NCBI GenBank assembly: GCA_022539475.1
Contig: VCMS01000018.1
Location: 62,001-126,000, forward strand
From: Gracilaria domingensis
Taxonomy: Eukaryota > Rhodophyta > Florideophyceae > Gracilariales > Gracilariaceae
DNA length: 64,000 nt
Reading direction: 5' to 3'
Shown here: piece by piece, positions 1,793 through 29,538 of the stretch
Layout: every line of letters starts with the position of its first letter
Position numbering within the stretch: position 1 is the stretch's first letter
Notes under the pieces: generated by a model
What the model saw: only the letters and a program-made list of their open reading frames with translations
The model's database searches: none
What the model was told of the DNA's origin: nothing
Program-made: the position numbers and the translations under genes

Positions 1793-4700
1793 ATGGAAGA
1801 CCGGCTGTTCGCATTCGAAATAGATCGCTTGGATGCCCGCTACAACGGTGGCTTAAGTTTTTTCCCTATAAGCATGGGTTGTGACCCAAATTTTGTCATG
1901 TGTGTGCCAAAATATGTTCAAAAAATTATATATGAGGGAGACAAACAGGCGCCATATCGCCACGTGGTCAGAACCAATTTTCTCGAAATAAATTAATGGT
2001 ACGGTATATGTTCGTGATGAGGCACGAATCGTGGGCAGGCAGTTGAGATCGCCTCATTTCCGCTCTTCGGAAATATCTGATATGACGACCACAGGATGTG
2101 GCCCACAGCGGCTTACTTGGCACAGTTTGGGAAGCAGTGCCTTCAAGAATCGGAGGCTTTTCTTTATGACGACGACTCTTGGAAGTCGAGACGACAGCAC
2201 TTTGGCGGCAAAATATGGGGTACAGCCGTACTTCGCATGGAGTTGGAATGCATCAATGAACCTCGGGATTACCGTATTCAAACCAACCGTGGACAGAGTT
2301 CGTTTCTTGGCCCTGATAAATGGAATGGGTTCGTACCGTCGAGCAGAGATCAGGTGTTTGACAAACATGAAGTTCTTAGGAAATGCTTTCTGAATGAAGC
2401 GGGACTTCCATATAATTGGCCAGTCTTGAAGCAGAGCGATGATGCATTGCCGTCACACGGTCTTTACAGACCGCTCATAAAAGAGGCAGTAGCACAAGTC
2501 CCTTAATACCTGTATGATTTCGTCGAAAAGCTTACCCCTTCTCAAGTTGAACGGTTTGCCATATTTATCGGCATTAGTGATTGGTGCGGGTGTAACGCAC
2601 AACCTCAATCTCAAGCTCTCACAGGCTCGAAGTATTTTGATATCCTTCGGCCAAGGAAGAAATTGCAACCAACAGATGCCCCCGTGCGTATATTGCAAGA
2701 TCAACTGGGTTTCATCGAACCTCCGGTAGCTACAAGATGCGGCTTCCCCTTCATGAGAACGGGGTACGGAAAGTACTTGTGGGACAATCGAGGAATTTTA
2801 CAAGTTAGCGCTCGTATCGACAACTGGTTGGCAATCAATGCTGGTCACCAGGTCGAGTTTTCGCTTCGAAGCCAGCGGGGCCTTGGTATAGATGGCCAAG
2901 AATACAATATCGCACACAGCTCCGAAACTCAACGAGATGTGATTGAATATGGCCAACATGTGGGTATCATATCAGACGAAGGCTTAGGTGGTGAAGGGAA
3001 CACAAATAGGGATTCAGCAGAAGACACGGACAAGCCCGAAGTGAACGTATCTTTGATTTTCATCGCGATTTGGAGCGAATACAGCTGAGATACCAACTGA
3101 CGAATATCGATGCACAACATGCGCATCTGGAACATAGTCTGAGCTTCATAGGATGCGTGAGGGAAAGTGTGCGTTCGGAAATTGCAGACTTTTGTTATGT
3201 TGAGGGAGATGGAAAGGATGACATGTGGTTTGCTACTCTTCCAAGGAAATCAATACCGATATGCATCTCTCAACAACTCTGGGGTTCTTTACTGGAACTA
3301 ATCGATGATCAATTCATGGAACACCCTGAGATGTTTAATTCAACCATTCAGGAACGCCTGTTATGGGAATGTCAAAATGGAGTGCACGCTGTGCTCCAAA
3401 GGTTGGAAAAGAAAGCCACAAAGGCGTCCAGTACAGAGTAGAGGCAATGCTTTTGTTACTACTGGGGTTTCCGAGCCTTCGAGTTGAACACTCGAAAGAG
3501 GTCCTAGTTCTGAAAGACAATAGCGTCGCACGCGTGTTCTTCAGAATCTCGCCTGTAGCGGGTCCTCAACCGTTTAAGGTTTTGATCACTGCTTTTCTAA
3601 CGTCACCCCTCATATATCTAGAAGTGGTAGTCGATGGAGACGAAAAATTCCCTCTCGACGAGCCAAATTTGTTGTTCAAATTGCAAGACTGGAGGGACGC
3701 CTTTGAGGGACGTCGTCACGGTAGAAAAGAATGGCAAAGAAACCACTACATGAACCACGTGAGGGTTCACAGAGGTAACACGAGTATATCTCGCGGGGTG
3801 GCCTCGAAGAATATAAGTAGCGCTGATGCTGAAAGAACTGCATTGGTATGGGAAGGATGGTGGCCACTCCGAGCTGGAATGGCTCTCTTCGAGTTGAAGC
3901 ATTCCTTGCTTATCATCGTTGGAGACCAAATGTCTTCGGAAAGCCACAGATGGGATGAAATACCGAGCACAGTGCATCGAGTTCGGTCTACAAAATATGG
4001 CGCTGCGGTGGCATACGAGAAGGCTAGCATATCGGACTTGAGCGATGCATCTGTTCATCTGGATGCCATACTCAAACTGAGTTCCATCCTTGTTTCTACG
4101 AGGAACCAGTCAAGTTTTCCAGACCCACCGCCACTGTGAAACATGATGGTCGCAGGTAAAAGGCAAAAATATTCACGAAGTTCACCGAGCGGTTCGAAGA
4201 CTAGCACAAATCCATCGCAGCTGAGTATAGGAGACTTATCGGACTACGAAGACATTGTGTCCAATAATGTAGAACTATCCCCAGTTGTATCACCCTCATC
4301 CTCACCCAAATGATCACAGGACAATGTGTTCAAAGCCCTGGGTAGACATGAGGCTCAACTCTTTAATTTCGTGCCGAACCCAACTCCTATTGCAAATTCA
4401 AACCTCGGCGACGCGGACGCTCTTATGGGACAGGTTCAAGAACAGGATCCATCGGCCATGCATGATCTTGCGAGGGGAGTACTGACTGGGACGGGTGCAT
4501 ACCGGAAGAACAGGCCAAAGGCACTTCTCCTGATGGAACGTGCGATTGTACTTGGTCGCCGAATTTAAACGGTCGAAATGTTTGTGAATTCTATTCTCGA
4601 GCACGAAAAGAATCAGATCGAAACGGATCCACAAAAGTTAGAAGACGACGTCGATCGAGCGCTCCGGGCAGTGGAAATGATGTGGAGGGATATAGATGCT

Positions 4701-5234
4701 CGTCACCTGCTTGCATTTGAGAACGGAAAGGCGAAACTGATTTGGAAGAGTGAGAACAGGCAAGATGAAACAACGCGAATGAAGAAGCTCACAAAACTGC
4801 ATTTAAAGCTGATCAAGGTGCGGAGAACAGGAGACCTCATGAGGTACCTCGCAAACAGATTGGCTACATGGGGCAAATCATACACGGAGCGTGAGGCTGC
4901 CACCATACTTTACGAGAGTGCTATCCTGGCCAACCGCAATTTGAATGAAATGCACGAGTTGGCTTTAATCTCCGCAAAGCAGGATATTAAGTTTGCGGTA
5001 CAGTTGTATGAAAGGGTTGAGACATTATCTGCGAGACGGGCGACAACGGAGCAGCAGCAGCAGCAGGAAACAGGAGGTACCATGGTGGTGAGGCAGGCCG
5101 TTAAGAACCGCACGGACGAGGGTCACGAGAATGCGCAACTTTTTCTGGAAGGCATCAGCAGATTGTCACAGATGGGTGGGGTGTCAGCGTCGGTGAACTT
5201 GGGGACGGAAAAGACTGGAGACGGGATCGTTTGA
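1793..5234 (+). pseudogene. Sel1-like repeat protein, multicopy family, copy A
   Basis: A long plus-strand coding region broken into pieces: 1793-1996, 2096-2506, about 2507-3088, 3070-3441, about 3430-4139, then 4140-5234. Breaks include stops after codons ending at 2506, 4139 and near 4312 and 4566, and a frame change near 3055. The C-terminal third (about 4390-5234) reads as Sel1-type helical repeats: PSAMHDLARGVLTGTGAYR followed by KALLLMERAI, and later ILYESAILANRNLNEMHELA. It ends with a short Gln tract (5051-5065). Such repeats act as protein-protein scaffolds. The N-terminal two thirds match no domain I can name. A second copy on the minus strand (29539-31930 plus 34198-34440) follows the same order, so this is a dispersed gene family. 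Reading without a break may continue to about 5320. The function of the full protein is unknown. Confidence 0.6.
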
Positions 5235-6103
5235 GGGGCGGCACGCGCGATGCGGCATTCGAAATTGTCTCAGATGCGGGTGTGGCATTGACGGGTGGTG
5301 AGCGCATTGCTGGGAAGTGAAGGCGTTGGGGAGAAGTAGGAACGTCTCCGAAGGTTGCAAGCAAAAAGCACGACTCGTAAGCACACGGGAGGGCGGCGAT
5401 GCATCATTTGTATAGGTGACTGAGCGTGGTGGAACGCGCCGACGGTAGCGCAAGCAAAGATGTTGAACTCATCATCGAAAAGCGTTCGAGCCAGGCAGCG
5501 TTTGACGTCGGATCGAGAGCAGAGCAAGCAATGACGGCGAATGCACCACGGAGCGATGTTTGAGCTATCTAACGTTTGACGCCGAATTGCGAGCACGTGC
5601 TTCGTGGACGGGCGATGTAAGATCGGCGGCCATTTGATGGTGACGTGGTACCGTTGTAGCCCGAAGCGTTGGCGGTAACGGGCGACCCGGTAGTAAGTTG
5701 CAGAGGGCAGCGGGGCGGTGGCGCCCTTAGCCGCAGCGTGCTGAAGTTGGCGCGTACCGGTCTGGTTTCTAGACCGCGGTGGTCACCTCGGGTGATGCCG
5801 CTCTGCTGCGTTTCGATAAGCGCGACACAACGGGGCTTGGCCGCCACGCATTTGCCAGCGACGCATCGGCGAGAGCTAATCCTGCGCGCTTTCCACTTTG
5901 GATTTGCACCTTTTTGCAGCGCACGCGCATGCCGTCACCTCCACTGTGCCGCCACGCGCCGCGCCTCGCCGCGTCCACAACCGGTTGCTCGAAGCGTCCG
6001 CAAGTACGTGTGCCCTTCGCACTCGCCGTCGCCTCAGCCCGCGCGCGTCGTTCCGCCGCTACATAAGCTGCCGCTGCCGAGACGACAGCGCGCCGAGCCC
6101 ATT
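5235..6103. other. GC-rich stretch without a recognised gene
   Basis: Base composition rises sharply here compared with the first 5 kb. Long open frames exist on both strands, but they are rich in Arg, Ala and Pro, overlap each other and look like products of high GC. The part next to 6104 would be the promoter and leader of the gene that follows. I see no convincing TATA element or RNA gene. Confidence 0.4.
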
Positions 6104-7111
6104 ATGCAGGTGCATCCCACAAACGTCGCGCCGCCGAAAATGGCCGTGCCGCCGGAGCGAGCGTTTGTGAAAGGCGAGCACGGCGACGAGTGCCCGCTGT
6201 AGGAGACAGAGAAGCAGCTGAGGTGTCAGAACGTGTACAGCGTGCGCAATTCGTTTTGGCAGGCCGAGGATGTGGCGGTGGCGTCTTGGCTGCTGGCCAA
6301 CCCGCAGCAGAAGTTCCGTCATGGGGCGCACATTGCGTCCAGCGCGTTTGATTCGTCGCTGGAGGTGCATGCGGAGCAGCGGCTCAAGGATACGAGCGGC
6401 GTGTGGGGCGAGGGCATGTCCATGCCAAAGGAGGCGTCTGCGGAAGGCGCGGAGTCGGGCAAGGACCTGCTTCTGGTGGCGGTGCGGCTGTTTGGAACCA
6501 AGTTGGTCGGGTACAGTTTCGGGTGCTCGTCGGCAGTTCGTCGAGATGACTTTTGCCCGTACGGAGCGCCCACTAACGCGTTTCTACCGCACTACGTCGG
6601 GCGTTTCAGCTTCGACGTTGCAAAGAATGATTTGCTGATCATTGCGCACCACGCAAAGCACAACTGCACAGGAATCATCTCGGCGCGGGGCGGTGCGCGA
6701 CGCGAGCGCAGCATCTACTTGGTGCCACCCGGCACGTACAGATACAACAACCTGCCGTCAAAGGTGATATCCATGACGCTTGGCGTGGAGACCAGGGAGG
6801 ACTGGGCGCCAAAGTATCAGTTTGCCGTGGGCGCTGACGGACAGGGCGAGTGGAGGTGGATGATCGAGGCGCTGGCGAGACTGGAGCGCATGCTCAAGGG
6901 GCGCTTCGTGTGCGCGAGCATGCGGCGCGACGACATGCACTGCGAGAGCGGCGAGGTGCGCAACCGGCGCACGGCCGCCACGGAGAGCATGTTCGACGTG
7001 AAGGACGCCGTGAGCATGCCCGTGTTCCACGACATGGCCACGCGCTGCTACTACTCGTACATGTCGAGGGTGAGCGCCGGCGGCGGCAGCGGGCAGCGCC
7101 CCCGGCGCTGA
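6104..7111 (+). pseudogene. Unrecognised host-type gene with one in-frame TAG
   Basis: Starting at the ATG at 6104, one frame runs to the stop at 7109-7111, broken only by a TAG at 6200-6202. The downstream part (6233-7111, 292 codons) looks like real globular protein: mixed composition, regular hydrophobic spacing, several aromatic and Cys residues (for example WLLANPQQKFRHGA, FCPYGAPTNAFLPHYVG, VETREDWAPKYQFAVG, FHDMATRCYYSYMS). No signal peptide or membrane span is evident. I do not recognise the family. The single stop could be a disabling mutation, in which case this is a young pseudogene, or translation could begin downstream of it. The high-GC third positions match the other host genes in the window, not the transposons. 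Confidence 0.5.
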
Positions 7112-7938
7112 CGTGCTGCGCCGCAGCCTGCATCAGCCGTCACCACATTATCTGCAGAAGGTAAAGGCGCGCGCACGGCCGCCATTGAGCGTACGTAAGG
7201 CGCGTGCGCGCCGTGTCGAATCACACACCGCCATATTGGCGCGCGGGCCGTGCCAAAGCGCCCCATTGTGTGTGTACAAGCACTCTTTGCACGGCCGCAT
7301 GTGAAGCGGAGTTTTCTGCACGCGTGCGCATTGCTCTTCAGCTGTTGTGCCGCGCCGGTCCTGCTCGCCCTCCGCACTCCCCTGCGGCGTCAGGCGTCAT
7401 GCCCACTCTTCGCAAGCGTAAAAGTTTTGTCACCGTGCCGCATCCGCCTGCCATTGCGCACGTGCTGCTCCACGTCGATGCACGGCGCTCGAGCTGCTGT
7501 TTTTCTCCCTCCTCGTCATGAGTACTGCACCGCGTGTGTTCTCCGTATAGCATTCTGCGCTGCCGCCTACCTTCTTCGAGGATGCCAGAAGCGCAAAAGT
7601 CGACGCGGATGATGTCGCTCATTTGCATCTCTGCGTGCTGGCGCGGGGGCTTTTGCTAATGTCGCAGCATTGCCGAATGGCTCTCCTCGAATCTGTATTC
7701 TAGGTTTTGTGCCAATCTTCCCAATCTTCCCGTGCTGCTTTCGGCCTTCGATTTTGCCCACCTCTTTTCCATCACGCACCTGTTTTACGGCGACTGCCGC
7801 GCCGATCGACTGGCGTCCAACATGCTAATCAATCCCATTGCTCCCTTGTATTCTTTGTGCGTTGGTTACACCGTTTCGCAGGGCCCAAACTGGCTGCATA
7901 ACGTCTATTGATGCGCGTTTCACGCGCAGTCGCACAAG
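7112..7938. other. Intergenic, nothing recognised
   Basis: GC-rich near 7112-7450, then falling. The open frames on both strands are short, overlap and lack protein-like composition. No RNA gene, repeat or element boundary was seen. Confidence 0.4.
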
Positions 7939-8319
7939 ATGCAGCTGATTGTCAATTACTGCTCGCCTGTAATCGCTGCCATTATAAGTATCCTCCTACC
8001 ACCGCACACCGTCCCTCAGTTTCTCTATACTTGCCCTCATGGCGACTACGGCTTCATTCAGCATCCCAACCAGGTGATCTTCCTGCACGCGAGCGAGCAC
8101 GAGACATCTGCCCCCGTTGTACTACTACAGGTGTCACAAGGCAGTCGTGAAATTGAAAATGCAGTGCAAGGCAAGTCTATTGCTATTTCAGGAAATCACT
8201 ACCCGTTAGTGATGACATTCGAGTCTCCTGTGGAACAAACCACGGTCAGAAGTGGGAACAAAGCTGCTGCGACGGTATGCGATGAAAGTGTACTTAGTAA
8301 CAACGCCTGTGATATGTGA
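7939..8319 (+). CDS. Hypothetical ORF, 126 codons
   Basis: An uninterrupted frame starting at an ATG, with a hydrophobic first 25 residues (SPVIAAIISILLPP) that could be a signal peptide or anchor. A mixed, plausible globular sequence follows (CPHGDYGFIQHPNQVIFLHA, then ISGNHYPLVMTFESPV). After the stop, the +3 frame at about 8330-8450 also reads protein-like (CVATAIKNVDEQFQRG), so this may be a fragment of a longer broken gene. No family is recognised. It lies between the GC-rich island and the left side of transposon element 1. Confidence 0.3.
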   Translation: MQLIVNYCSPVIAAIISILLPPHTVPQFLYTCPHGDYGFIQHPNQVIFLHASEHETSAPVVLLQVSQGSREIENAVQGKSIAISGNHYPLVMTFESPVEQTTVRSGNKAAATVCDESVLSNNACDM

Positions 8320-8766
8320 TGAAATGTTTCTGATTTGCCGATCACAGCGTCACGTGTGTTGCGACAGCAATCAAAAACGTAGATGAACAGTTTCAACGCG
8401 GGTGCTGGAAGAAATACACCCATTTCGGCAAGCCGTTTCCAGCAACAAAGCGTTTGTGACCAAGACGGTAGTAGATTTGGGACTGGGCGCCAACAAAACT
8501 ATCGGTTTGCAACGGAGACTTTACGATATGAGTAATGCGCTCCGTGTCTGTGTGTCGTAAAGCAGTACATCATTATTTACATTTGTGCTTCGACTGCTTC
8601 GTCGCAAAGCGGCGCCATTTTTCACTTGACTGGAGGTGGAAATCGAAACCTACTTCTTCTCAGATAGACACGTCGCCCGCATTCAGTGGATTTTACTCAA
8701 ATGGACTCCAATTTGCTTAGGGTAGAGTACTACAAGCTCCCCACCACTTCTCTCATACCCTCTAGA

Positions 8767-9770
8767 TTACCAAGAGGCTTCTTTGTTTCGGTCGACTTCA
8801 TCCACTCCCCTATTTTGAATATCCGATTCCTGTCCTGATGCTTGTGATTCACCTTCGTTATTTTCACCGGCTTTCATTTGTATGGCTGTAGCAACGTCAT
8901 TATCAGCAGATATACGTAGCACAGTGTCATCGTCTACTACTGGTAGTTTATACACTTTCAGATAATGATGGAAGCAGCGCACTTAATTTATATCTTCTTT
9001 CAACTCGTATAGGTATCTTCCAAAGCTCGCTGGCGCAACTGAAGATAACGATTCAGGTTCAGTACTATCGGGTGCTGTCTGTTCAGAATTAGAATCACTG
9101 AAGGCTTTCGTCTTGCGTGCTGCGTACCATTTTCGTCTTTTTGCCAGCGTGCTTTCACGTTCTTCACTAGTTTCCGACTTCCGTTTCTCCTCATAACGCT
9201 TACGGCGATTTTGGTTTTCCTTCTCACGAATGGCACCATTTAATCTCCATAACGTTTTACGCAAGGACGGAGTGATTGAGTGCATTGGAGTATGAACAAT
9301 ATTATGCTGCATTTTGGACTTCACGTGAAAGTGTTCTTCCACATCCGCATTTGAAGAGATTTTATGCCTAATCACGAGAAGAGTTGTATCTACAGGCACT
9401 TTAATCCTATCCAGAGGAAATCCAACATCCTCCGGTATAACAATTTTTCGGTATTCGATGGACATATTCAGATGCTATCGCATTGGTGATGGAGAAGAAC
9501 TACTTCACAGGCAAGAGCCATATTTTCGTGTAACGTGCCATATGGCACGTTACAAAGCTCTCTGTCGTGCCAGAAGAGATAAACACGTTTCTCTCGATAC
9601 ATACGTGTACCGGATCTGCCGTTTTCAGGATATTTCAGCCGTGTCCAAACTACTCGGCCGCGTTTGACAAGGGACTTGGGCCGATGTATGATGGTTCTTA
9701 GTGCAAGAGACATGTGCCCACGAGCCATGGTGCTTTCGTCAAGTTCCCGATTTTTCACATCCCATCTCAA
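8767..9770 (-). pseudogene. Basic/Ser-rich ORF module (copy 2) beside transposase
   Basis: Three adjacent minus-strand pieces (9468-9770, 8983-9465, 8767-8982), with a frame change near 9466. The central 160-codon piece begins near the motif IPEDVGFPLDRIKVPVD, followed by a basic helical region (ENQNRRKRYEEKRKSE, TLAKRRKWYAARK) and an acidic Ser/Glu tail, a pattern typical of nucleic-acid-binding or nuclear proteins. It is clearly related to the module at 631-1550, including the upstream segment with FWHDREL matching LWHERKL there. It lies downstream of, and on the same strand as, the element 1 transposase, so it may be a third transposon ORF. The copy at 161-1550, however, is followed by the Sel1-like gene. 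Which gene owns the module is undecided. Confidence 0.4.
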
Positions 9771-10183
9771 GCGCTATTACGTTGTAATGTTTACGTGATG
9801 AACGTTTTTGTGGATATAATTCTGTCTCCGACGATGACACACACTCTTGCAGACACTCCAATGGACGTTTCTATTTCTACAAGTTCCTGAAGGGTAGCGC
9901 CGCGCCTAATCTCTGTCTGTCTCGGTAAGCCGGTGCGAGGGCCTTACATACTATCTTAGGTACTCTAATTGAGGCAAAGCACACTTGTTGGTAATACTGA
10001 TTATTCACGAAGATGTGGTAACGGCAGAAGTAAGAAGCACACCAATAATTTCTTGCATCTGGCTCCATCAAGGCTTGTATCTAGTGCCCCTAAGGAACAC
10101 TTTGAAGATCACGTTTTGGCACAGGAACAATAGGAGAAGCAGGTATCCACCTTGGACTAAGATTGATTGTCGTTGTTGGTCAC

Positions 10184-13100
10184 TCACTTTACTGAAATTA
10201 CTCCTTGGAGTGTTTCCCGAACGTCTTCAAGTCCCTTCTGGTTCATATCTTTGTCGAAAAAGTACGTACGACGAGATATGCGTAGTATTACAATATTGCG
10301 CTGAATTACTTGGGCCATTTCTGTCGACTTTAATGTCATTCTTCTGCCTTCAGTGAAACAGACATTCACATCTAGGTCCTGAATTAATCCCTGCTCCCAG
10401 GTAACATCCACGAGACCAACGTGAACTCGATTTTCCTCATTTACCCGTTTGGTGGAAAGGAGTACTTCAAAAATCTTTGTTACGCTTCCGAAGTATAAGT
10501 CCCGTGACCGTCTTGGAATATGATCATTTCCGGAAGGACTCGAATCCGTCAAACTGAATTCATGGACATCTTCTGTGCGTATGAAATGAGCAGCGATATA
10601 GTGCTTCTGCCGACATCCTGCTCTTTTTGAAGCTCTCTTCTGATAGGCCTCGTAAGTTTCAATGGAAATCGATCTTTCAGGCTTGCGCACCACAGCGCTT
10701 TCATATTCTCTAACTCGATCAATGTGGAAAACTGTTTCAGATCCGAACGTGTCCGTCACGAATGCGCATATTGCACGATGGCGTTCATGAGTACGCCAAT
10801 TTGGTTCTGGATCACGATAATTTCCAACACAACTCACGTTGACGCCAAACTCTTCTGCAAGGTTTGAATTTCCTTGCCGATTCTCTACTTGAGTCAAATT
10901 AGTATCGTACTCACGTTGATCACTGATTTTTATGCTATTGCATGTTAGCTTCATAGCAAGAAGTCGGAAGTTTTTGTGGAATATGTGAGCGCAAAGATTC
11001 GGACTATTTTGGATGCGTTTGCCAATTTCTCTTAGTAGTCTTTCCACGACAAACTGTGATGACAAAAGTAACGGACCGCAGTGTCGTAAGAGATCAGGAA
11101 TGTGAAGAACTGCGTGTGAAGAAGGAGTGAAGCAGTGGGCATCTGAATCAGATCCGTAGAAGAGAACCACATATCTGGTGTACATTTCCTCCACAATTTT
11201 TCGCAGGTACTCTACACGGTCGTGTGAGCAGTCGTATTCGAAGCAAATTGTGACCATCTGTGACGTCAAAACCTAAAGTCACAAAAGTCCCTTCGAAACC
11301 TTGTAGCAATGTAAGAAAGGGGTGATATATAACTGGGCATGCCTCTTGAGATCCTCGGCTTTGTATTTTGATAAGTGTTCCAGGGAAAATGGAGGCCGAC
11401 CCCAAGAACTTGGTATTCCTTGTGACGAGTTGGACATGGATTCGTTGATTCTACTCAGAGTTTGCGCGGGGATGCAGTATGCCCGTAACTCTTCTGTATT
11501 TGCATGTCTCGGATTTGCAGCGGTTATAAGTTGAAGAACTTTCTTCACCCACCCGAGAAGAGCAAGATGCATCACATCATAAGGGAAGGAATACACATAG
11601 TCCAGCTTCAACTTTGAAAGGATTGGTCTTTTTTGATTCCTGTTCTCTTGATAATTTTCTTTCTGGAAACTGGACCCAAATCTTTGTGGCTAAGCTTGAC
11701 CCACACTTCTCTTACATTGGCATGGCTTCGTTTCTCTGGCATTTCAAGACGAAAAAGTTTAGTCACGGTCGTTGCTGACCTTCTCGCGAGCGCATCGTTG
11801 AATGCTTTTCGAGATTTCTCCGGACATGCGCATGATTTTCTCAACTCTTTGATGTACGTTTTGCTTTTTCTGCAAAACCTGCAGAATATCTGGGCATTAT
11901 GACCGACATACCCAAATACCTTGGACGCAGCTGGCCAGTCGGCTGTAAAATACAGCATGAAGGCCCTTAGAGTTCTAATCTTCCCATCATGGCATGATAC
12001 TGTTATACCATTCTCCAACGCTTTCAAATCATTCACTAGAGGGTCGACAAAGGTTTCAAAGTACGCAGGATCATGTGTTCCAGGTAAAATTGCATGAATG
12101 ATGGCATTGGAAGCTTTGCTTCTTTCTGAAATTGAGAAATTCAGTATCGTTGACAAAACTGGCCATGTTGAGACGGCATTACCGATCCTGTCTCTGCCAC
12201 ATTCAAATCCATCCGTGGAAAGGGAGATAAAGACTAACACTTCTTCATTACGGTCCCACTCTTTCATTCGAGTTGCATTCTGTCGGAAGAAGAGCTCGCT
12301 GTGATAGTAGTCATGCGGAGGTTGTTGCTCCTTTTGGCCTAATAGGAACCCTTTTGCCCTTTCACAGCCCTTCATAATCTCGTTGAAGTATGCCTTTGCG
12401 TTGCAAAGTCCTCGCAAAGCCGAAGATACGCTCAAGTACCAAAACAGCATACCAGTTTTGCGGAAAGGTGTAGTACAAGTGGGACACACTGTCGCATCTT
12501 TTAGCTCACCAGAACGAACAGCATGTCCGTCTCCACAGATAACGATACTGGATTTCTGGATTTGAGAGCGCTTGATGGAATAAGATATCAATGATCTATA
12601 GGAAAATCGTGCTGATATCGGACGAGTTCGAATCAAACTATCGATTGCGAGCCTGGATATGTTGGAAACTTCCGCACGGAAGATAAAATCCGCAATACGT
12701 TCGAATTCAGACTGTATGTGACTTTTCTCATATAGCTCTTGTCCGAAAGCACTGAAATGAGTTGGGCTACTGTACAATACACCACTGTTCGGAGAACCCC
12801 GAAATAGTGTGTCCCGAGAGCAAGAAAGACTGTTTGCATCGTCCGAACGAGTTACGGGCACGCGATCTTCTTCATTTTCTTCAATAACTGGGGACCCGTT
12901 TTGATCAGCTCTGTGACTGAAAATGTTGCTAGAGTCGGATCTCCCGATATCATTTTCCGGATTCTTGTTTCCATCCTCCACGATTGGAGAGTGATGGCAC
13001 TGAATGGAACGCGTAGAACGTAATTCGAACTGCTCAGTATTATCTTTTGAGGCGGTTAGCCCGAAGAGGTTGGTTGTAAGTTCCCATCTCAAAGCTCTCC

Positions 13101-13248
13101 TGTATGATATCTGTATATTACTTTGTGGCTGTTCTACTTCTTCAGTGTTCTCGCTACTGTCGTCACTTCGAAGAAACGAAATGGATGGTGTATCTTGGTC
13201 ATTTTCCCACCGGAACCGCTTTCGACGAGTATGTCGGTACATTTTCAA
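10184..13248 (-). pseudogene. CACTA/EnSpm-like transposase (Transposase_21/Tnp2 type), element 1
   Basis: Would cut and paste the element. The first piece (13248 to 11608, 546 codons) has a Ser-rich acidic N-terminus, a zinc motif near residue 255 (CPTC), the catalytic segment with DGFECGRDR near residue 346, and TADWPA near residue 437 followed by GYVGHNAQ and CRFC. These are the landmarks of the Tnp2 family. The second piece carries YDVMHLALLGW, the counterpart of the family's DPMH motif. The third (to 10184) carries the helical end with SSHAVLHIPDLLRHCGP. Comparison with element 3 shows a one-base deletion in an A-run near 11626. Alignment to element 2 shows that the TGA and TAG near 11274-11281 are nonsense changes, not an intron, since the spacing between flanking motifs is equal in both copies. 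So it is a pseudogene, unless these are sequencing errors. Confidence 0.85.
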
Positions 13249-13799
13249 TTCCTCGCGAACATCTAGAAGCCCCTAGTTCCTTTATCTTACGGTCCTCTGG
13301 TGATTTGATACTGACCTGAGCGAGCTCGATGTTAATTCAAGGTTCACGATCTCAAATAACTTTGCATCGACTTTCAATGCAACAAACAGTTTTCCAATTT
13401 TCAAACTTTGAAAAATATTTCTTTCAGAAGTAGGGGACGGTTCGACTCAGGAAGACCTGTCAAGGCTTTCGATTCGAGCTAGCGTCTTCCAACTCCCGCG
13501 CTTCGGACAGCAGCCGCATCAATTAAGAACCGATGTCACTCTCTTCCCGTTCGTCTATCCCACAATGGCCCGGAACAACAACTCCAGTCAGGCTGCCGTA
13601 TCTCCTCCATCAACAGCCGCGCTCTTCGGCCACCGATACCATTGCCTTGTCGTGAAGTGTGTTCTGCCGTTATTTATCCGCACAGAGTTCGAACGTAAGT
13701 CTTAAGATATCTAACCTCGTTGTGCTCCTGCACTAGTTTGTGTTCTGACGCAATCCATATCCATACAGCCAGCGAATTGTTTCCACTACCGTTAGCATC
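13249..13799. promoter_or_regulatory. Divergent intergenic region of transposon element 1
   Basis: About 550 bp separate the start of the minus-strand transposase from the start of the plus-strand accessory gene. Element 2 has a gap of similar size between its corresponding genes (about 46188-46765), so this is probably the shared bidirectional promoter. I found no clear TATA box or operator in it. The assignment rests on position alone. Confidence 0.35.
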
Positions 13800-14972
13800 A
13801 TGCCGAACGTTACCGCCGATAGTGCTGTCAACCGCCACTCCAATTCTTTCACCAATGGAAGCTTCATGGGAACTGCCACTGGGGCAAGCCATCGCAGCGT
13901 ACCCCGTGATCTCCAAGTCGAGACCGTAGAGCGAGTTCGTGACCACGCACCGCCCCGTGCATCGATTTCGAACAACGTTCATGATGTTCGTATCGGACCG
14001 GAACGAAACGGTAACAGAGATTCGCATGAACTTTTGCCCCTAAACTATGTGCCGATTCCCACAGCTTCAAGTAAACGGAAGATGAAGCCTAAAGATCGTC
14101 CGGGCTATCCCACTGGCACATTGATCTCCTCCAGTGTTGTTTTCAACCGTTTATATCAGGAGCGCATGGGAAGGCCACAGCCTTATGATGACAACTTTCC
14201 ACTGTACACGGAACTTTCAAACGCAGTGAAAGATACAGCTCGTCGATATCTTTTCAAGCGTCTCAAACTCAAGCGAGGGGAGCAAACTTTTCGCGCCATT
14301 CGATCTCAATTCTCTTCCCAGCTCATGCAGATTCAGAGAAGCTTGACGGAAACATTTCCCGTCCTTGGAACTGCCCAGAACCAGTGGATTGTTACCGAAC
14401 TCATCAAGGAGGCAGTGCAGCGGGACAAAAAAGCCGTTGTTGAGGCAGCCAAGCGAAACAAGAAACAGACTGAAGATTCTTCTGCGCCACAGGCAGCAGA
14501 ACGAAACCAAGACACATTTCTTGAACGTCGCGGTGAAAATCATGACGAGGAAGTTCTTAGGTCGTCTCAGGCTCCAGTAGGACAGAATCAGAACTCCCAT
14601 AGTTTCGCGGCTACGGAAGTAACGCCTCAGACTACATCTGCTCAGGGCCTAGCGCTTCATACTTCCAACTTTGAGACTGCGCAGCCGCGGACTGCAGACG
14701 AACAAGAACTGGGGGATAATGAAGGGTACGCTGATCATGTAGGGTCTGCGAGTCAAGTCGATACGGAAGCCAGGCGTTTGCAATCTCATCAGTATGATGA
14801 TGATGAAATCGTGCCAGTAGCAAATGCTGACAATTCTAATGGCAGCAACAATTTACTCAACGACGAGGAAGACATCATGGACAGCGGTGTCTCTAATGAG
14901 ATCGAGGAAAATGAAGAGATGTATGATTCAGGCTTATCGGAAGAAGAGGAGGTGGTAGATCGCCGACCATGA
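13800..14972 (+). CDS. Transposon accessory protein, divergent from transposase (element 1)
   Basis: An intact 390-codon frame starting at ATG. It has a low-complexity N-terminal 90 residues, then a helical, basic middle (about 110-215) containing FPLYTELSNAVKDTARRYLF and TAQNQWIVTELIKEAVQRDK, a Gln/Ser-rich linker and a strongly acidic tail ending in a run of Glu. The middle segment is matched in element 2 by AEGQWAVNMLIQKAMRRDR, in a gene in the same position and orientation, so it belongs to the transposon. Plant CACTA elements carry a DNA-binding helper (TnpA), but that gene is usually on the same strand as TnpD and I see no sequence match. A DNA-binding or transcriptional role is inferred only from the basic middle and acidic tail. 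Confidence 0.6.
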   Translation: MPNVTADSAVNRHSNSFTNGSFMGTATGASHRSVPRDLQVETVERVRDHAPPRASISNNVHDVRIGPERNGNRDSHELLPLNYVPIPTASSKRKMKPKDRPGYPTGTLISSSVVFNRLYQERMGRPQPYDDNFPLYTELSNAVKDTARRYLFKRLKLKRGEQTFRAIRSQFSSQLMQIQRSLTETFPVLGTAQNQWIVTELIKEAVQRDKKAVVEAAKRNKKQTEDSSAPQAAERNQDTFLERRGENHDEEVLRSSQAPVGQNQNSHSFAATEVTPQTTSAQGLALHTSNFETAQPRTADEQELGDNEGYADHVGSASQVDTEARRLQSHQYDDDEIVPVANADNSNGSNNLLNDEEDIMDSGVSNEIEENEEMYDSGLSEEEEVVDRRP

Positions 14973-15682
14973 AAGAATCTGGCACGTAAGCGGGGTAAGG
15001 GCAGTATGGCAAATACTCGTACGTAGGGGACTACGGGACTACGCCAGCACCCTGCACGCGTACAAGCGTCAGTCCGAAGCAAGAAGAGGGCTGGATTGAC
15101 CGCCAAAGTCAGCAAAACTAGACAGGATCAGAGAGCCAGTCGTCCTCCGAAGTCTCATCGAGCAAGGCGCAAGGCTCCACAGAAGTGTCTTAGGGCACAC
15201 CATGACTTGGCTTCTGATTCTGAAGAAGAAGTATAAGTTCTTATCATTATTATCAGACATGGCTTTTCAAGATCTGATGTTCTGCAACCGGTACCCCAGC
15301 TTCGTTTTCTCATATATTTGTTCTTCCAGCGCAATCACTCATGTTATTCTGACATCACTATTAGTATGCAATCAGCCTCTTGTTTTGTCACAGTGTCATC
15401 CCGTCGGACGACTACGATGCCACTATTAGTCTAATAAAGTGATGTGTTGTTGCAATGATGTCGACCTTCTTTGGGTCTCAAAGCGTACTTTCGTTGTTGA
15501 AAATGTAACCCTGCAATGGCCATACTGAGACGTGCAATGGATGCCTTCTGGTTCTAATATCGCCTACGCTACGATATCAAACGGTACTACATTTCTGGCC
15601 TTCTAAAGCACACCTTTAGTTCCTTTTTCGTCTGCTTCTATTGGCCTTCGATTGAACACATGCTATACTACTTGAGTACTAA

Positions 15683-15960
15683 TTATGGCATCGTTCCGGT
15701 CTGAAATGAACCACATTGTACACCGTAGTCGATCTCTTTCTGAAACCATTCTGGCTCACAATGGATCACATTTTGAGCATATTTCCCGGACAGTTTTTGT
15801 CCACATTTTGGCAGCACCTTATATGGCAACATATTGGTCACATTTTGGGGACCTCCTTTCGGCCATGTTTGGCCCATATCTGGATCCGTAATTTGAGGCA
15901 CGATTTTGTGCCTTTCTCGGCCATATTTGGGACGCATATTGGACTATCAATTTGCCTGTA
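15683..15960. repeat. Right subterminal and terminal region of transposon element 1
   Basis: Degenerate copies of a short unit (forms of GGCCATATTTGG, CACATTTTGG, GCCCATATCTGG) repeat every 20-30 bp up to the end ACTATCAATTTGCCTGTA at 15960. The same block occurs inverted at 28932-29050, starting TACAGGCAAATTGATAGTC, and similarity stops at the same base in both, which defines the terminus. Arrays of short subterminal repeats are the usual transposase-binding sites in CACTA-type elements. DGAT1 coding sequence begins directly at 15961. The end reads (TA)CAGGCAAA from outside in, not the classic CACTA. Confidence 0.65.
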
Positions 15961-17059
15961 GGGTTTGTTACTCTTCACTGTGGCCACCACGCTGCTGTTT
16001 CTGGCGCAGGTGAATCCGTTTTTCGGACTGATTCATGGCATGTTGGTCGCGGCGGTGGCGCTCCAGCAGCACAGCTATGGGCTCACCCACCTGCTGCTAA
16101 ATGAGGAGATTTAGCTTCGCCGCATGTATCGTCAACGACAAGGATTATGTGCAAGTTCGTCCGTCGAAAATGACCGAATCACTACCACGACGACGATGCG
16201 GCGGCAGTGACGGCGGCGGTGATGACGAAGAAACAACAACAACAGCCACAACCACAACGACGGCAACCAACAGTGCGGCTTCGGAATCTTCGTTGGACTC
16301 GCGCAGACACTTCAATGCAGCCAGCAGCAAGCGAGTGAAATACCCGCGCAACCTGACGGCTGGCAATATGTTGTAATATGCGGTGGCAACACTGTTGTTG
16401 TACTAAACGAGCTACCCGCGCACTCACACGATGCGAATTTGATACGTAGAGTGGTACGGAATCCAGATGGTGGTGTGCATGGTGATTTAGTATGCGCTGA
16501 TCATGCAGTTATGCATGCCGATGTGGCAGCTCGGGCGCCTTACGGACAAGGAGCATCGAATGCTGTGGTACATGGTGGAACTGGCGCTGTGGTGCTTCTT
16601 CATCTGGCTGCTGCCATTCTTCGAGTACCTCCACTGCGCGCTGAACGTGGTGGTGGAGATGATGCGCTTCGCAGACCGGCAGTTCTACGACGAGTGGAGG
16701 AATGCAACGAACCAGCGGCCTTCTGGTTCGCTTGGAACGTGCTGGTGCACGGGTGGTGCCTGCGCCACCTGTATGTGGCGGTCGTGCGGCGGCACAAGGT
16801 GGGGCGCAGCACGGCGGGGCTGGGGACGTTCGGGATGCTACAGGAGTATGTGGCGTTCTGCGGCTTGCGCATACTGCGGCCGTACGTGTTTCTGGGCTTG
16901 CATTCGCAGCTGCCACTGATGCGCGTGTCGGAGCGTCTGGAGCGCCGGCACGCTTGCAACGTGCTCGTGTGGGGCGTGCTCTTCGCCGGCGAGTGCAGAA
17001 CGGGCATGCTCTACGTGCGCAATTATCTGCGCCGCATAGACGCGCTCGTGTATTGCTGA
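15961..17059 (+). pseudogene. DGAT1: Diacylglycerol O-acyltransferase 1 (MBOAT family), truncated
   Basis: DGAT1 makes triacylglycerol from diacylglycerol and acyl-CoA in the ER membrane. The family order is visible: FLAQVNPFFGLIHGMLVA (about 16000), YPRNLTAGNML (16345), YPRTHTMRI, then LALWCFFIWLLPFFEYLHC and VVVEMMRFADRQFYDEWRNATN (to 16710). After a frame change near 16710 come FAWNVLVHGWCLRHLY, the segment at 16830-16850 and YVFLGLHSQLPLM, ending at 17057-17059. In-frame stops lie at 16374, near 16403, 16438 and 16488. The catalytic histidine of the MBOAT motif is replaced by Gln (codon 16841-16843, LQEY in place of the usual HE). The 5' part is missing because transposon element 1 abuts at 15960. 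A Thr/Ala tract at about 16228-16290 expands a loop that is normally short. Clearly non-functional. Confidence 0.8.
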
Positions 17060-18660: not shown

Positions 18661-20560
18661 ACAAGTAACCTTTCCCAGAAGGGTTGCTTAGTTCGTCATA
18701 CTCCACAGTTTCTGTTTCAGCCTCGGGCCACTCTACAACAAGCTTCTCTTCTTCATCTCGAAATCTTCTCTTCCACGCTCTATTAGCAGCATATATCTGC
18801 TTCATGACTATCATTGCCTTAGATGGCCTACGCATCACATGGTGCCCATCAACGACACGCTCGGGATAGGTATCTTCGATAACGATACCACACTTCTCTA
18901 GTAACTCTTGCGGGGCTTTCCACGGTCGGTGTATATATTTTGTTGGCAATTTGGCCAATTCCGGAAGGCCCCGTCCGACATAATTACCATTCTGGTCTAG
19001 TCTGTAGGCTTGTCTAACAGGATTCACTAGAGTTGTCACAGGAAATGCATCAGTGTTACTGCCAGCCGTCCAGTGCCAACCAAAAGCATTCGCCGAGCGA
19101 TCACCATCGACAAGAAGCATGTAAAATTGCCGTTGTCCTTTAGACCAGGGTAGCAACAAATACTTTGTCAAGAAACAGGCCAGGAGGAATCTCATTCGGT
19201 TGTGAATCCAACCAGATTTACGCAGTTCTCGCATTGCGGCATCTATAATAGGATATCTTGTAGTCCCATGTCGCCAGCTGTCGAATAAACCGTTATCGTC
19301 TTCCAATGGAAACATGGAAAACTCTGGGATCCATGGCTTCGAGTTCATTTCAGGGAAGTGATAAAGAATATGGAAGGAGAAATTTCGAAGGCGAAGGTTT
19401 TTGAGGAATGCACGCGCCGATTGGGATATGTGAGGACGGCGAACTCGCAATCTTCCTGAGACAAGAATATCTTCCTGGTCTATTTGGTCTTTCGATGTGC
19501 CTAGTCTTGGATCTGATCCTGAACGCCGACTGTTTTGCGTCAGATTATCTGAGGGCGATGGTCCACAATTTAAAAAGGATTCGTTTCCAGGTTTACGGAA
19601 CTTATTCCTATCGTTGTTTTCAGGATTATCGCTAACTGTAGGGTGATGCTTTCGAGGTGCAACATTGAGCGCCTGACCTGTCTTCAAGCCTTTTGACAAC
19701 GTGGTTTTATCCCATTGCGAAACTCGTAGCTTTGTGGCATGGTACATTCTGCGAGGACTGATTTCTCCAAAACGAATATATGGACTCAGACGACTTGTTC
19801 CTTCAAAATGTTGCCTACAACGACTTCCACCAAAGGTCGGGAAAACTTCGTTGAGAAAGCGACCAAGCTGTATTTTCGCCTGTGACCTTCCTGGTTTCCA
19901 AATCTTAGCTAGATTACTGGCCATATCGTCTGAAATTTCGCATCCTAAGAGATCTAGACCAAGAGATTGCACAATTGTGGATAGTGGCTGTAACCTTGAT
20001 GGGGAAAGGAGCAGGTGAGAAGGAGGGGCGACGGTCATCCATGCGCTCATGTATGCGTAGAAAAAGTCATAGCGGGGGCAAGTTTCGGAGTTGGATAGCT
20101 CCCAAGGTTCGACAAGCAATTCGGCCTTGAAGGTTTCTGCTGTGAAGCCCTCTTGGACCAGTTCTTCGCGCAGCTCTTCATCTCGTAGTAGTTCAGGCTC
20201 GTCGCATCGATTCCAAAATACGGCATCAGCACCTGTATCGATGAGGAAGCGTCGCAGCTCTTCAGTGCTGCTGCCCTCGCGGGTATAAAGCTGCACTTCG
20301 AGTCAGCGCAAATCGTTGTGCATTTGGCGAAGGGAGTGAAGAAGCCACCACGGACCGGTACCAAGCCAGCTCTAAAGCCATCCGACGGGTTCCAGATAAA
20401 CAAAAAAACGACCGGAAGGCCTCGTCGAGCGGCGGCAAACAGCGCTGGATGGTTCTCGACGCGCATGTCGTTGCCGCGGTACCACACGACGCTGGGCTTA
20501 CGAAACCACTTGGAAGAGGGGGAACGTGGAGAGGGCGAGCGGGGCGTGGAGCGTGGGTGA
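18647..20560 (-). pseudogene. Cryptochrome/DNA photolyase family protein
   Basis: A flavoprotein of the photolyase/cryptochrome family, which repairs UV-damaged DNA or acts as a blue-light receptor. The N-terminal Rossmann part starts about 20500 with VVWYRGNDMRVENHPALFAA. The main 549-codon frame (20296 to 18647) holds GADAVFWNRCDEPE (residue 22), SPYIRFGEISPRRMYHATKL (171), WRHGTTRYPIIDAAMRELRK (341), IHNRMRFLLACFLTKYLLLP (364) and DGDRSANAFGWHWTAGSNTD (398), which form the FAD-binding helical domain. A low-complexity segment of about 90 residues (200-290) splits this domain and could be an unspliced in-frame intron. Two lesions separate the N-terminal part: a frame change near 20370 and a TGA at 20303-20305. 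Whether it was a CPD photolyase or a cryptochrome cannot be decided by eye. Confidence 0.8.
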
Positions 20561-20619
20561 TGCGGCGACGCTTGGGGGGCGGAGATTGTGTGCGCGGGCG
20601 CCGATTGGAGGGATGTCAC

Positions 20620-21902
20620 TGCACGGAAGTAGACCGGGTGGTGGCGCTCGGCACACCGGAGTCGTTTGGTAAGAAGCGCCGCTTTCGTCGGGGGAATGGG
20701 AATTCAGGGACGTCGGTTCATTGCGGACGCCGCTGTGCTGCAGCACCGCGGCGTGGCGAGGTCACGTGATCTGCAGGTTCGAAGCGGCGGCGCGGGGCAG
20801 TTGCGGCGGGCCGACATAGGCGATGAGGCGGCGGTGGCGAGGCAGCGGTGACGGAACGGAAGGAGGGGGGGGGGGGCGTGGCGTTAGTAGTGAACGGCGC
20901 GGGGCGGGCGCGGGGTCGCGTATCAAGGCGAGGGGGGGCTGCGCGCGGAGCGGATGCGCGAGTCAGGTGGACGCCGCGCTGCTGGGGCGCGCGCTGCTGC
21001 GCCGATTGCACAACAGGCTGTTGTCAATAGCTGTGCAGCCAACGAGCTCGCGCGACGCGCCCCGGCTGCCACTCGCTTTTCTTTGGGGTATCTACGCAGT
21101 CATGTGTGTCATGCGCGAAACCCCGCAGCGCTGTGGCGCATGGCCGAATCGCGCCATGATCTGCCTCGCGACCCCTCCCCCTCCCCGTGTTCCGCCGGAG
21201 CCGCAGCCTTGTGCGGCACACAGCTGCCCGGGGAGTGGCCCCGGGCCATCGACGCGCACGACTGCGATCTGGCTGCAGTCGTGCGCTGCTGCACGTGGCG
21301 GACACTTCGATCGAGCTACGCGCTGCCATGTACGCCATCATCTTCATAGCGTTGCTGTAGGTAAGAACAGGGATCTCGTTATGCGCGGTTCCCGCTTTCT
21401 ACCATAGTCATCCCCGCCAGCAAAAGGCGCGATAATGCATAGCCATTCTGTCCGCGTCAACCTGGACCTACGCAAGCCGTGCGTAGACCCGTCAGCTCTG
21501 TCGAGACTCGAGAGCATACGCACGAGCGTACGCACGGCAGTATATCAGTCGTTAATCAGCCGCCTGCCTGCTACACTGCTGCATCAGCCCGCTGGACGCG
21601 CTCCACCGCCAAGTCGTCACCGAAAGACGTCGCAGCTCATTCTCCCATGCTTCCCCCCTTCCCTCGCCCTTCCCCCTACCCCCACCTCTTTCTTGTCTCT
21701 CTTGCTTCTCCCAACCCCTTCTTCACTTCAACCCCCCTTATCATTCCCACACTCGCTCCACCCCTCTCTCATCCTGGTTCCATCTCCTTTTCTTCAACCA
21801 CTCCCTCTTCTCTTTATATCTTCTAACTTCTATATCTCAGCTGTATCTCCCGACGTTTACCTCTCATCTCTTTGCCCTGCCCTGCTCCCCATTTGCCCCT
21901 CA
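20620..21902. other. GC-rich intergenic with G-run and pyrimidine-rich tract
   Basis: Between the divergent starts of the photolyase and CHD1-like genes. It contains a run of about 11 G near 20867 and a strongly pyrimidine-rich plus strand from about 21636 to 21855 (repeated CCCTTCC, CTCTT and CTTC words), probably promoter sequence of the CHD1-like gene. Overlapping GC-driven open frames (20823-21407, 20954-21349) are not credible genes, although the end of one frame (HVADTSIELRAAMYAIIFIA, near 21290-21355) looks protein-like and may be a relic. Confidence 0.4.
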
Positions 21903-24900
21903 TGCAATCCTCTCGGCCCTCCAGGGCGGACGGCTCGCCTGGCGACGAAGAACCAATCCTTTCTTCCGACGAGTGGCAATGAAGAAGATCATCTCCATCT
22001 TCTTCTATACATAATTTCTCCAATAATGCGCATTCTAATCCAAACTCTTCACCACAACAATCTTCCCCATTTCGCGAGAAATCCTCAAGTTCTCCCGACC
22101 GTAATGAGTCTTCTTCTTCCTATCACCATGACGAAGATGCCAACGAGGGTGACGATGAGGACGATGCTGACGTTCAAGTTGAGCTTGAGGGCGAGCTGGA
22201 CCAGGTGGACCAAGATGCCCAATACGCTTCCGGAAACAGTCCCAACCACCCACAATTGGCAAATAGCGACCATCCTGATAGTGATAGTGATGATCAGTCA
22301 AACATGATTCGCAGGAGAAGTCGCTCGCAACAGAAATTTGTCATCCCAGAAGATATGCCTGACGAAACCTGCTATTTCCGGCATTCCTCTCGCTCATGGC
22401 ATGCCCCAGAGCGCCTCTCAATTTCCCCACCAGACTCTCCCAGCGCTTCTAGCGTTGGCAGTGACTCTGACTACAAGGCTGACGATGGTACGTTAATCTA
22501 TCTTTTAACTAATACTGCCTTTGGCCTTAACTCCTTTCTTCTCTAACACACGTCATCTCTGCGCTCTCCACATTTGTTCTGACACAGCTGAAGAAGAGGA
22601 GGACTAAGATGAGGAGTATGAAGACCTTGATGATGACGATTTCAATTTGGAATCGGGGAGGAAGACAAGATCTCTCGCAAAGCGATCATCGTCTGGGCAG
22701 GCCAATCGTATCAGACGATTCGAAGCCAATGACGCTGATGACCACGTCGAAGATGGTAACGCATCTCCGTCTGACTCTGACGGTGATAGGCTCATGGATG
22801 GAACGCCTGCAAAACTTGCTGGGAAGCGCAGGCGCCGATCTTTGCAGCATCCGAAGAAACGACGGAGAACGAATTCCGTCCCCGTCGATGATGAAGCATT
22901 CCGAAGTGCGCACATTAATAGTCGGACAGGTGGTACGGTGAATTCCTTTGAGGGGGACGATCTGTTGGAGGAGGAAGCTGCTATTCTTGCAGCAATGCAG
23001 GCTGAGGAGGCTGCAGATGCCAACATACCAGGCGTTGACCAAGTTTTGGAGTATCGCGTTATCGATGGGAAACCAAACGCGGGTGAAGGCGATGGACCTT
23101 ACAGGGATTTTGCGGTCTTCAATGTAGAATTCAAGATCAAGTAGACTATCACCTCGTTCCGGAAGTGCACCCGGAAAACATGGGATACTCTTCAGGCAGT
23201 GAAAGGTGCGAAGAAGGTCAGCAACTTTGTCAAGTCGGTTGAAGAAGTACGAAAACTTGTCTTGAACAACGCAACTCCAGAAGATATTGAAGACCTGCGG
23301 GTAAATAAGGAAGAAGATAGAGAGCTCTTCCGAAGCTATGAGGTTGTTGACCGCATCATTGCCCATAGAGAAACTGAAGATTTGGGGACGGAGTATTTGG
23401 TGCAATGGTGTATCCTCTCTTATGAGTATTGCACTTCGGAGAAAAGATCTGATCTTAGTACTGAGGCTGACATGAAAGCCATAGATGCGTTCAGTGACAG
23501 AGAACAAGCAGTCTTGTCTATGACAAGTAAGAAGCGTTTCAACCCCTTCAATGTCAAAGACGATAGGCCTAAAATGAAGCGCATGACTGAGTAGCCAAAG
23601 TTTCTTCATGGAGAAGGGCGAACTCTCCGACCGTATCAGCTTCACGCTCTTAACTTTCTTGATTTTGCGTGGACGAATCGCAACAACGTTATTCTCGCAG
23701 ACGAGATGGGTCTTGGAAAGGCTCTGCAAACCATATCGTTTCTTGGCTGGTTGATGTATGCCCGTAATATCCATGGTTTGTTTCTTGTTGTCGTACCACT
23801 GAGCACCATAGCAGGATGGGTTCGGGAATTTAGGCAGTGGCTACCGGACATGAACGTCATATGCTACGTTGGGAACTCCAAATCGAGAGACATGATTCGA
23901 GAGCACGAGTTCTTCTCATCAGCCAAAGGAGGCACTGAAAAGTTCCACACGCTTCTTACAACACCAGAGCTTCTTATGCAGGATGTTGACTATCTTGGTG
24001 AGTTCAGGTGGTGCATGATTGCCGTGGACGAAGCTCACCGTTTGAAGAATGAAACAAGTGCTCTGCACACAACAATAGCTGGTCTGCGCTCTGGAAACTG
24101 TCTGCTAGTCACCGAAACCCCACTGCAGAATTCAGTGCGCCAGTTATGGGCCCTGCTACGCTTCCTGAACACAACGAAGTTCCCTAGCGCGGAAGCATTT
24201 GAGGAACGCTTTTCTTTTGCTGCGTTGAGAGATCCAGAGCGTGTGAGCGAGCTTCACAATACCTTGAGTCCCTACATTATGCGTCGTCAAAAGGGTGATG
24301 TCGAGAAATCCTTGCCGAAGAAAACGTATGCTGTTCTTCGAGTGGAAATGACTTCCGCCCAGCAGCAATACTACCGTTGGTTACTAACTAAGAATCTAAC
24401 AAAGTTGAACGAAGCTGGAAAAGCCAGAGGCATTGGTAACACTTCTAGTATCCGAAACATCTTCATAGAGTTGAAGAAGTGTTGCAACCATCCGAATCTT
24501 TTTCCCAACTATGCAGATACCTCCACTCCAACCACTGTGGAAGAATTAATTCGTGCCTCTGGAAAGATGAATCTTTTGGACAAACTTATGCTTCGTCTCA
24601 AGGAAAGAGGACGTCGAATGCTTATTTTTTCTCAAATGGTGAAGATGTTGAACATACTTTAAGACTACTGTCGAATGCGGCTGTTCCCATTTGAACGACT
24701 TGGTGGAAGTGTTGCGAACCAAGTTCGCCAGCGCTCTGTCGATCACTTTAGTGCCCCAGAGTCGACTTACTTTATTTTCTTCTTCTCAGCCAGAGCTGGG
24801 GACTTTGGCATTAACTTGGCCGCAACGGACACCGTCATAATCTTTGACTCTGACTTGAATCCTCAAAATGATCTGCAAGCGGAGAGTGGCACCCATCGCA

Positions 24901-29537: not shown

Positions 29538-29538
29538 A

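Follow-up and report, generated by a model that had tools for sequence, protein, structure and literature searches.

The stretch analysed here, hereafter the window, comprises 64,000 nucleotides of the red alga Gracilaria domingensis (contig VCMS01000018.1, C18:62001–126000; labels of this kind denote contigs of the same genome, 77.9 Mb in 680 contigs). Fourteen matches to the phycobilisome linker family PF00427, spread over nine contigs, agree with a red-algal origin. It contains a large transposon, element 1, in which the gene of a Transposase_21 enzyme lies on one strand and a second gene, here termed accessory, reads away from it on the other (Table 1). An earlier note on this DNA, made from the letters alone, had described a Tnp2-type transposase with a divergent second gene at this place, and both were indeed found: the transposase matches PF02992 (E 2.8e-14, Pfam search) plus DUF1258, and the second gene is an open reading frame (ORF) of 390 amino acids (aa). 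The window copy of element 1 is decayed. In the copy on C15, 15 stop-to-stop frames of at least 130 aa were found, of which five were taken as genes: transposase (1029 aa), accessory (495 aa), orfA (1018 aa), orfB (302 aa) and orfC (235 aa), two of them inside a stretch shared with contig C104.

Table 1. Features of element 1, element 2 and a decayed relative in the window (window positions; aa, amino acids).
Feature	Position	Strand	Remarks
Element 1, whole, decayed copy	1864–15963		End-to-end match to C15 and C85, similarity lost abruptly at both ends
Left terminus, CCCTATAAGCATGGG	1864–1878	+	C136 and C137 share it; C177 has one change
Stretch shared with C104, ≈6 kb	2105–8123 (limits approximate)		Element positions 242–6265 = C104:143086–149145
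orfA	2189–5231	+	Disrupted here; 1018 aa open in C15; matches part of a 1322-aa C104 frame
orfB, rich in guanine and cytosine (GC)	6203–7108	+	302-aa frame; C15 version 92% identical to C104 relative
orfC, small basic protein with STPR-like stretch	8770–9474 (C18:70770–71474)	-	Recurrent beside transposases; one stop here
Element 1 transposase (Transposase_21)	10184–13275	-	Three frames here; uninterrupted in C15 and C85 (1029 aa)
Gap between the divergent genes, ≈520 bp	13276–13799		Presumed bidirectional control region
Accessory gene 1	13800–14972	+	390 aa here; in C15 478 aa from first methionine, 495-aa frame
Conserved accessory core	14049–14453 (limits approximate)	+	From alignment and substitution ratios
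Right subterminal DNA	15714–15963	-	11-bp period measured on C15 copy and other right ends
Right terminus, inward reading, CCCTACAGGCAAATT	15949–15963	-	Imperfect inverted repeat of ≈11 bp with left tip
Inverted decayed relative of element 1	28929–34434	-	Both tip regions, orfA remnant, transposase piece near right tip
Element 2 transposase	42794–46187	-	Broken into several frames
Element 2 accessory (clade B)	46650–47736 (start approximate)	+	Two frames, 46766–47026 and 46981–47736

The limits first proposed for element 1 (10184–14972) are too short and were abandoned, as the alignments with two full-length copies extend the unit to 14.1 kb. The copies on C15 and C85, each 97.2% identical to the window copy and 99.4% alike, both form one continuous 14.1-kb unit. 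The termini read CCCTA..TAGGG. Perfect target-site duplications (TSDs) of 4 bp, incompatible with a length of 3 bp, flank four of the six copies examined (GATG on C15, TAGT on C85, CTGC on C137, ATTC on C136), and a 3-bp TSD fits the other two, namely the window copy (TTT) and that on C177 (ACA). Judged from the positions of their tips, the related elements on C177, C136 and C137 measure ≈15.4, ≈18.7 and ≈23.3 kb, respectively. A second group (C237, C53 and C261; 99% alike) shares at least 16.0 kb of sequence and has CCCTGTGGGCC at its right end. The C237 element is flanked at its right tip by an open frame (C237:69001–70107) that by eye resembles a Ty3-type integrase.

The intact transposase of the C15 copy matches PF02992 with E 1.5e-14 (54.1 bits against a cut-off of 28.6 bits), and the similarity of the transposases to PF18759 (Plavaka) is weak and below cut-off (E 0.0055 and 0.0032). 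In one protein the motifs STDGF (352), TADWPA (443), CRFC (464), HAVLH (720) and FVVER (741) follow each other in an order that fits D..D..C(2)C..H(3-4)H..E; the protein also has further C..C and H..H matches, and the catalytic residues, which are our own assignment, are putative. PDB searches with the transposase and with orfA gave no credible match.

A second, distant divergent pair, element 2, was found at 42.8–47.7 kb of the window, as previously described, though its transposase stays under the 28.6-bit cut-off for PF02992 (E 2.9e-5, 23.8 bits). The layout had been regarded as kept in two diverged copies, and a search for both accessory proteins in the same genome had been proposed as a check. 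Such searches, whose counts are lower bounds because the best candidates of each were taken, gave at least 106 matches for accessory 1, at least 39 for accessory 2, and at least 79, 146 and 150 for three transposase queries. After merging, at least 113 accessory and at least 179 transposase loci were obtained, and each accessory was paired with the nearest transposase within 6 kb. Divergent order was found at 90 of the 113 accessory loci listed, the same strand at 3, another order at 3 and no transposase at 17, while random placement on the same contigs (200 trials) yielded a mean of 7.5 divergent pairs and a maximum of 14. One transposase locus with no accessory match at first, on C263, proved to carry a divergent 355-aa ORF, and this ORF used as query gave at least 77 matches, defining a third accessory clade (clade C). 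Twenty-three of the 77 were added to the accessory list, the rest having re-hit or overlapped known loci, so that the final set comprises 129 accessory loci, 98 of them divergent (broken copies included), 3 same-strand, 3 in other order and 25 with no transposase match within 6 kb. Counted from the other side, a divergent accessory is present at 97 of the 179 transposase loci listed. The divergent layout is real and far commoner than two copies, a number too low by a wide margin given at least 98 divergent pairs.

The accessory proteins share a core that can be recognised between clades. The short motif QW.VxxLIxxAxxRD, previously proposed to link the proteins of elements 1 and 2, held up in profile comparison: hhalign found an alignment of 12 clade-A proteins homologous to one of 9 clade-B proteins (97.4%, E 1.2e-11) over 132 columns, well beyond the motif itself, and the clade-C query retrieves members of clades A and B by single-sequence search. 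The contrast between an acidic and a basic tail is visible in the window, as had been noted. On C15 and C85, instead, the accessory runs past the acidic part into a basic part and then an acidic end. The contrast is therefore partly an artefact, since the window accessory is truncated at 14972 and the same gene is longer in these copies, and it was dropped as a clear family trait.

Ratios of nonsynonymous to synonymous substitutions (dN/dS, Nei-Gojobori) were calculated for seven pairs, one of them for the core alone, and for four clade-B pairs; nine gave a ratio. In four clade-A pairs (among C15, C136, C137 and C177) the core values were 0.05, 0.06, 0.07 and 0.10, and in two clade-B pairs 0.08 and 0.07, compared with 0.39–0.67 for the tails of the same six pairs. 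The core is thus mostly under strong purifying selection (dN/dS 0.05–0.10 in six of nine pairs). Moreover, similarity of the accessory core and of the transposase N-terminus co-vary among 10 clade-A loci (Mantel r 0.50, reached in 20 of 2000 permutations; of 60 loci, 20 could be used, and removal of near-duplicates left 10). Correlating accessory and transposase by their identity to the window copy gave a weaker relation (rho 0.40 in 63 pairs chosen by hand; 0.23, p 0.09, once the five closest were removed). With the clade-A alignment as query, scans returned 23 pattern matches in viral contigs and 169 in genome contigs, none of which was confirmed.

At the ends of the elements, the terminal 250 bp were examined by autocorrelation against 500 dinucleotide shuffles, bearing in mind that ends within one group are not independent. 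Five of the six right ends, drawn from two groups, scored best at a shift of 11 bp or came within 0.002 of their best there (0.414–0.427; in one end a shift of 12 exceeds it by 0.002), a value reached by none of the 500 shuffles at any shift. Interior windows of the C15 copy (n = 53) gave a mean of 0.260 and a maximum of 0.331. The repeated units resemble ATRTGNCCAAA and are mostly directed inward from the tips.

These results suggest that the conserved back-to-back second protein helps the element move. In particular, the accessory could be a TNPA-like, end-binding helper of large EnSpm-like cut-and-paste transposons, a reading to which our analysis gives an even chance. In the proposed mechanism, the core module would consist of a divergent transposase and helper whose genes face away from a common control region of ≈0.5 kb, often joined by a third gene for a small basic STPR-like protein. 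The helper would act like plant TNPA by binding the helically phased subterminal units beside the tip, and once bound might let the transposase pair the ends and cut them; enzyme and helper would be kept in step by their common control region. In plant CACTA elements, according to the accessible text of PMC2613891, the second protein is needed, its non-homologous versions being thought to bind variable subterminal repeats, and TNPA of Spm/En binds such repeats and is required together with TNPD. The idea, already put forward in the earlier note, that the second protein is part of the transposition machinery is favoured because the core is selected and accessory and transposase similarity co-vary; to this the pairing itself can be added. 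The Mantel correlation is modest and the identity correlation does not reach the same strength. With at least 98 divergent pairs in one genome, a helper core of ≈132 residues is recognisable across deeply diverged transposases, which allows a group-wise comparison of the helper with its DNA sites and so makes their co-evolution testable.

Several observations weigh against an end-binding helper. A divergent accessory was not detected at 82 of the 179 transposase loci, a number that includes fragments; among these, intact transposase frames of 1061–1097 aa occur on C387, C409, C510, C73, C180, C97, C157 and C166, and the intact 1137-aa frame on C115 shares 94% identity with element 2 over the piece compared. 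Selection on the core is less evident in the C237 group (0.27 and 0.33, with tails at 1.10 and 0.99, among close relatives with dS 0.06–0.13); one pair gave a core value of 0.63, the core limits being mis-set there, and saturation affected two clade-B pairs. Single-sequence and profile searches with the accessory gave neither a Pfam family above cut-off nor a PDB relative. A DNA-binding fold, for which structure prediction of the core had been suggested, found no support: the models, made from the window sequences, contain four and five helices at low confidence (mean predicted local distance difference test 60.8 and 62.6; predicted template modelling score 0.47 and 0.40) and are too poor to assign any fold. 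As to the ends, the sixth right end, from the decayed relative in the window, gave 0.356 (27 of 500 shuffles over all shifts), the single left end tested is weak (0.335; 80 of 500), and the consensus of the repeat unit and a 16-base motif were drawn by eye. Finally, the element itself carries a strong competitor for end binding, orfC, which is the main rival.

If orfC bound the ends, the accessory would serve otherwise, e.g., by holding the transpososome together or choosing targets, which we regard as a possibility on the unlikely side. The two orfC proteins examined contain ETSEERESR or ESTEERANR, with the E4/R9 spacing of STPR repeats, which are described as tandem DNA-binding repeats of 23 residues (PMC4821344, accessible part). 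The gene is also linked to elements: 43 of the 57 orfC loci listed have a transposase within 8 kb, 36 of them being placed downstream on the same strand and 7 on the accessory side, where five adjoin clade-C accessories. On the other hand, a shift of 23 residues is second best in both proteins, the best score being reached in 12 and 425 of 1000 shuffles; ≈1.5 repeats can be counted by eye against four in FMBP-1; the C15 protein has no Pfam match and no credible one in the PDB (best E 0.91); and 14 of the 57 loci have no transposase within 8 kb, though at least one of them, on C137, belongs to an element with its transposase 8.5 kb off. On C309, C470, C263, C290 and at C18:62870, orfC lies downstream of a clade-C accessory and not of the transposase; in these loci the third gene has therefore changed side.

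The accessory might also be a regulator or anti-silencing factor acting on the expression of the element and not on cut-and-paste, for which VANC of VANDAL elements and the second gene of Mutator are comparison cases. Divergent placement over a shared control region would suit such a role, as would the long, charged and poorly conserved tail and the occurrence of the accessory at about half of the Transposase_21 loci listed (97 of 179), but the phased array occupies the tips, the expected site of action of an end-binding protein, and our analysis makes a regulator improbable. That the accessory is passenger DNA hitch-hiking beside the transposase could be argued from the ≈6 kb that element 1 has in common with C104, a locus with no detected transposase, and from the 25 of 129 accessory loci with no transposase match within 6 kb. 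Orientation and adjacency are kept across deeply diverged clades, though, with divergent pairing far above random and the selection on the core described above, and a mere passenger, which we consider highly improbable, was rejected on these grounds. Among these explanations the TNPA-like helper is the one we prefer.

The stretch shared with C104 lies in the left part of the element, and the interval from the left tip to orfC may represent a variable bay able to hold DNA that is also found at this host-like locus. The C15 element and C104:143086–149145 are 91% identical at the DNA level, with a weaker match (72%) at element positions 6274–6610. The element tip (1–212) matches eight other places that resemble left tips of other elements, C104 not being among them. 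Contig C104 also holds further orfB relatives in a row and a phycobilisome linker gene, and neither a transposase nor an accessory was among the matches listed for it. The simplest reading is that the element would have taken up host DNA. The orfA coding sequence of C15 is 99% identical to C104, from which, given 91% for the whole stretch, it follows by arithmetic that the remainder is ≈83% alike. The decayed relative at 28929–34434, in which no accessory match was found, retains an orfA remnant (87% DNA identity) whose border also falls at element position 242; this border is therefore older than the 99% implies. A recent uptake of the whole 6 kb was withdrawn in view of both results, and either gene conversion or a further exchange would account for a 99% coding sequence beside an older border.

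Pieces of orfB (0.3–0.4 kb, 71–85% DNA identity) were also found 5.2–5.5 kb from Transposase_21 genes at C510:23747, C248:51884, C105:156659, C73:219891 and C180:106864, five sites that belong to a transposase group with no detected accessory, and decayed orfB relatives lie near orfC on C137, C136, C129 and C177. Given this recurrence near transposases and near orfC, orfB could itself belong to transposons, and the pieces at the five sites are perhaps a regular component of a second transposon family. Further orfB pieces were seen on C384, C439 and C481. These elements are also a case in which a large transposon and a second locus in the genome have exchanged long stretches of DNA that include genes.

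Element 2 also extends beyond the limits originally given (42794–47736), at least on its right side, as two sister copies match up to 48627. Elsewhere in the window, a clade-A accessory relic with stops was found at 57266–57508 (- strand), with no transposase match within 6 kb. GC-rich islands (61–64%) occupy 6000–8000, 20000–22000 and 48000–50000, many other 2-kb windows having 42–48%; the third island adjoins the right side of element 2, where two diverged direct repeats occur (48691–48929 and 49182–49411). Dispersed direct repeats at 36995–37249/42118–42372 (86%) and 37247–37323/56123–56199 (81%) possibly represent another transposon family.

The element 1 family is an EnSpm/CMCT-clade transposon of a red alga and not a classical CACTA element. 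It encodes a Transposase_21 enzyme, and the TSDs of all six copies examined fall within the 2–5 bp given for CMCT elements in the accessible text of PMC12730594. There the ends are CA..TG "in most cases", a wording by which the CC..GG ends observed here leave membership possible. With the classical plant CACTA elements Spm/En and Tgmt*, as far as the accessible parts of PMC2613891 and PMC4158355 describe them, the family shares Transposase_21, a second element protein, subterminal repeats (here with a period of 11 bp at five of the six right ends, the one left end tested being weak) and a possibly large size, Tgmt* measuring 20.5 kb (PMC2613891). It differs from them in having divergent genes in place of an alternatively spliced single unit, in its termini (CCCTATAAGC.. 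and CCCTACAGGC.., and CCCTGTGGGCC in the C237 group, against CACTA..TAGTG) and in its TSDs, which are 4 bp in four of six copies against 3 bp in classical elements.

Among other relatives, the animal TRC elements (SmTRC1 and insect relatives) are alike in Transposase_21 and CCC termini, that of Tribolium, CCCTAGTAGC.., being close to CCCTATAAGC.. of element 1, but they have 2-bp TSDs, which were not found here, and measure ≈5–9 kb, and no divergent helper is described for them in the accessible part of PMC1636069. Plavaka elements show weak transposase similarity, and the CMCT range of TSDs covers element 1; they differ in their termini (TGT..ACA or CATCA..TGATG) and 2–3 bp TSDs (PMC12730594, accessible part). 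A literature search for Gracilaria transposons gave nothing useful, and none of the accessible literature searched, which excludes Repbase and most subscription journals, was seen to describe a CACTA-like element with transposase and helper in divergent order. Giant EnSpm elements with 4–5 ORFs are already known from a red alga, Chondrus crispus, whose families are reported to measure 16–20 kb (Kojima, Bao, Jurka 2013, Repbase Reports, cited in the accessible part of PMC6431247); compared by description only, the elements studied here, also red-algal, measure 14.1 (three copies), 15.4, 18.7 and 23.3 kb, with five frames taken as genes in the C15 copy. The earlier suggestion of a distinct lineage is thus plausible as regards CCC termini, 4-bp TSDs and divergent genes, and has to be tempered in view of the Chondrus giants. 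As a tentative proposal, which we hold somewhat doubtful, these elements might form a distinct red-algal CMCT branch, marked by the divergent pair, a helper superfamily with no Pfam or PDB relatives, CCC termini, mostly 4-bp TSDs, an 11-bp helically phased docking array at the right tip and a left bay that would repeatedly take up host genes, making the element a gene-shuffling vehicle.

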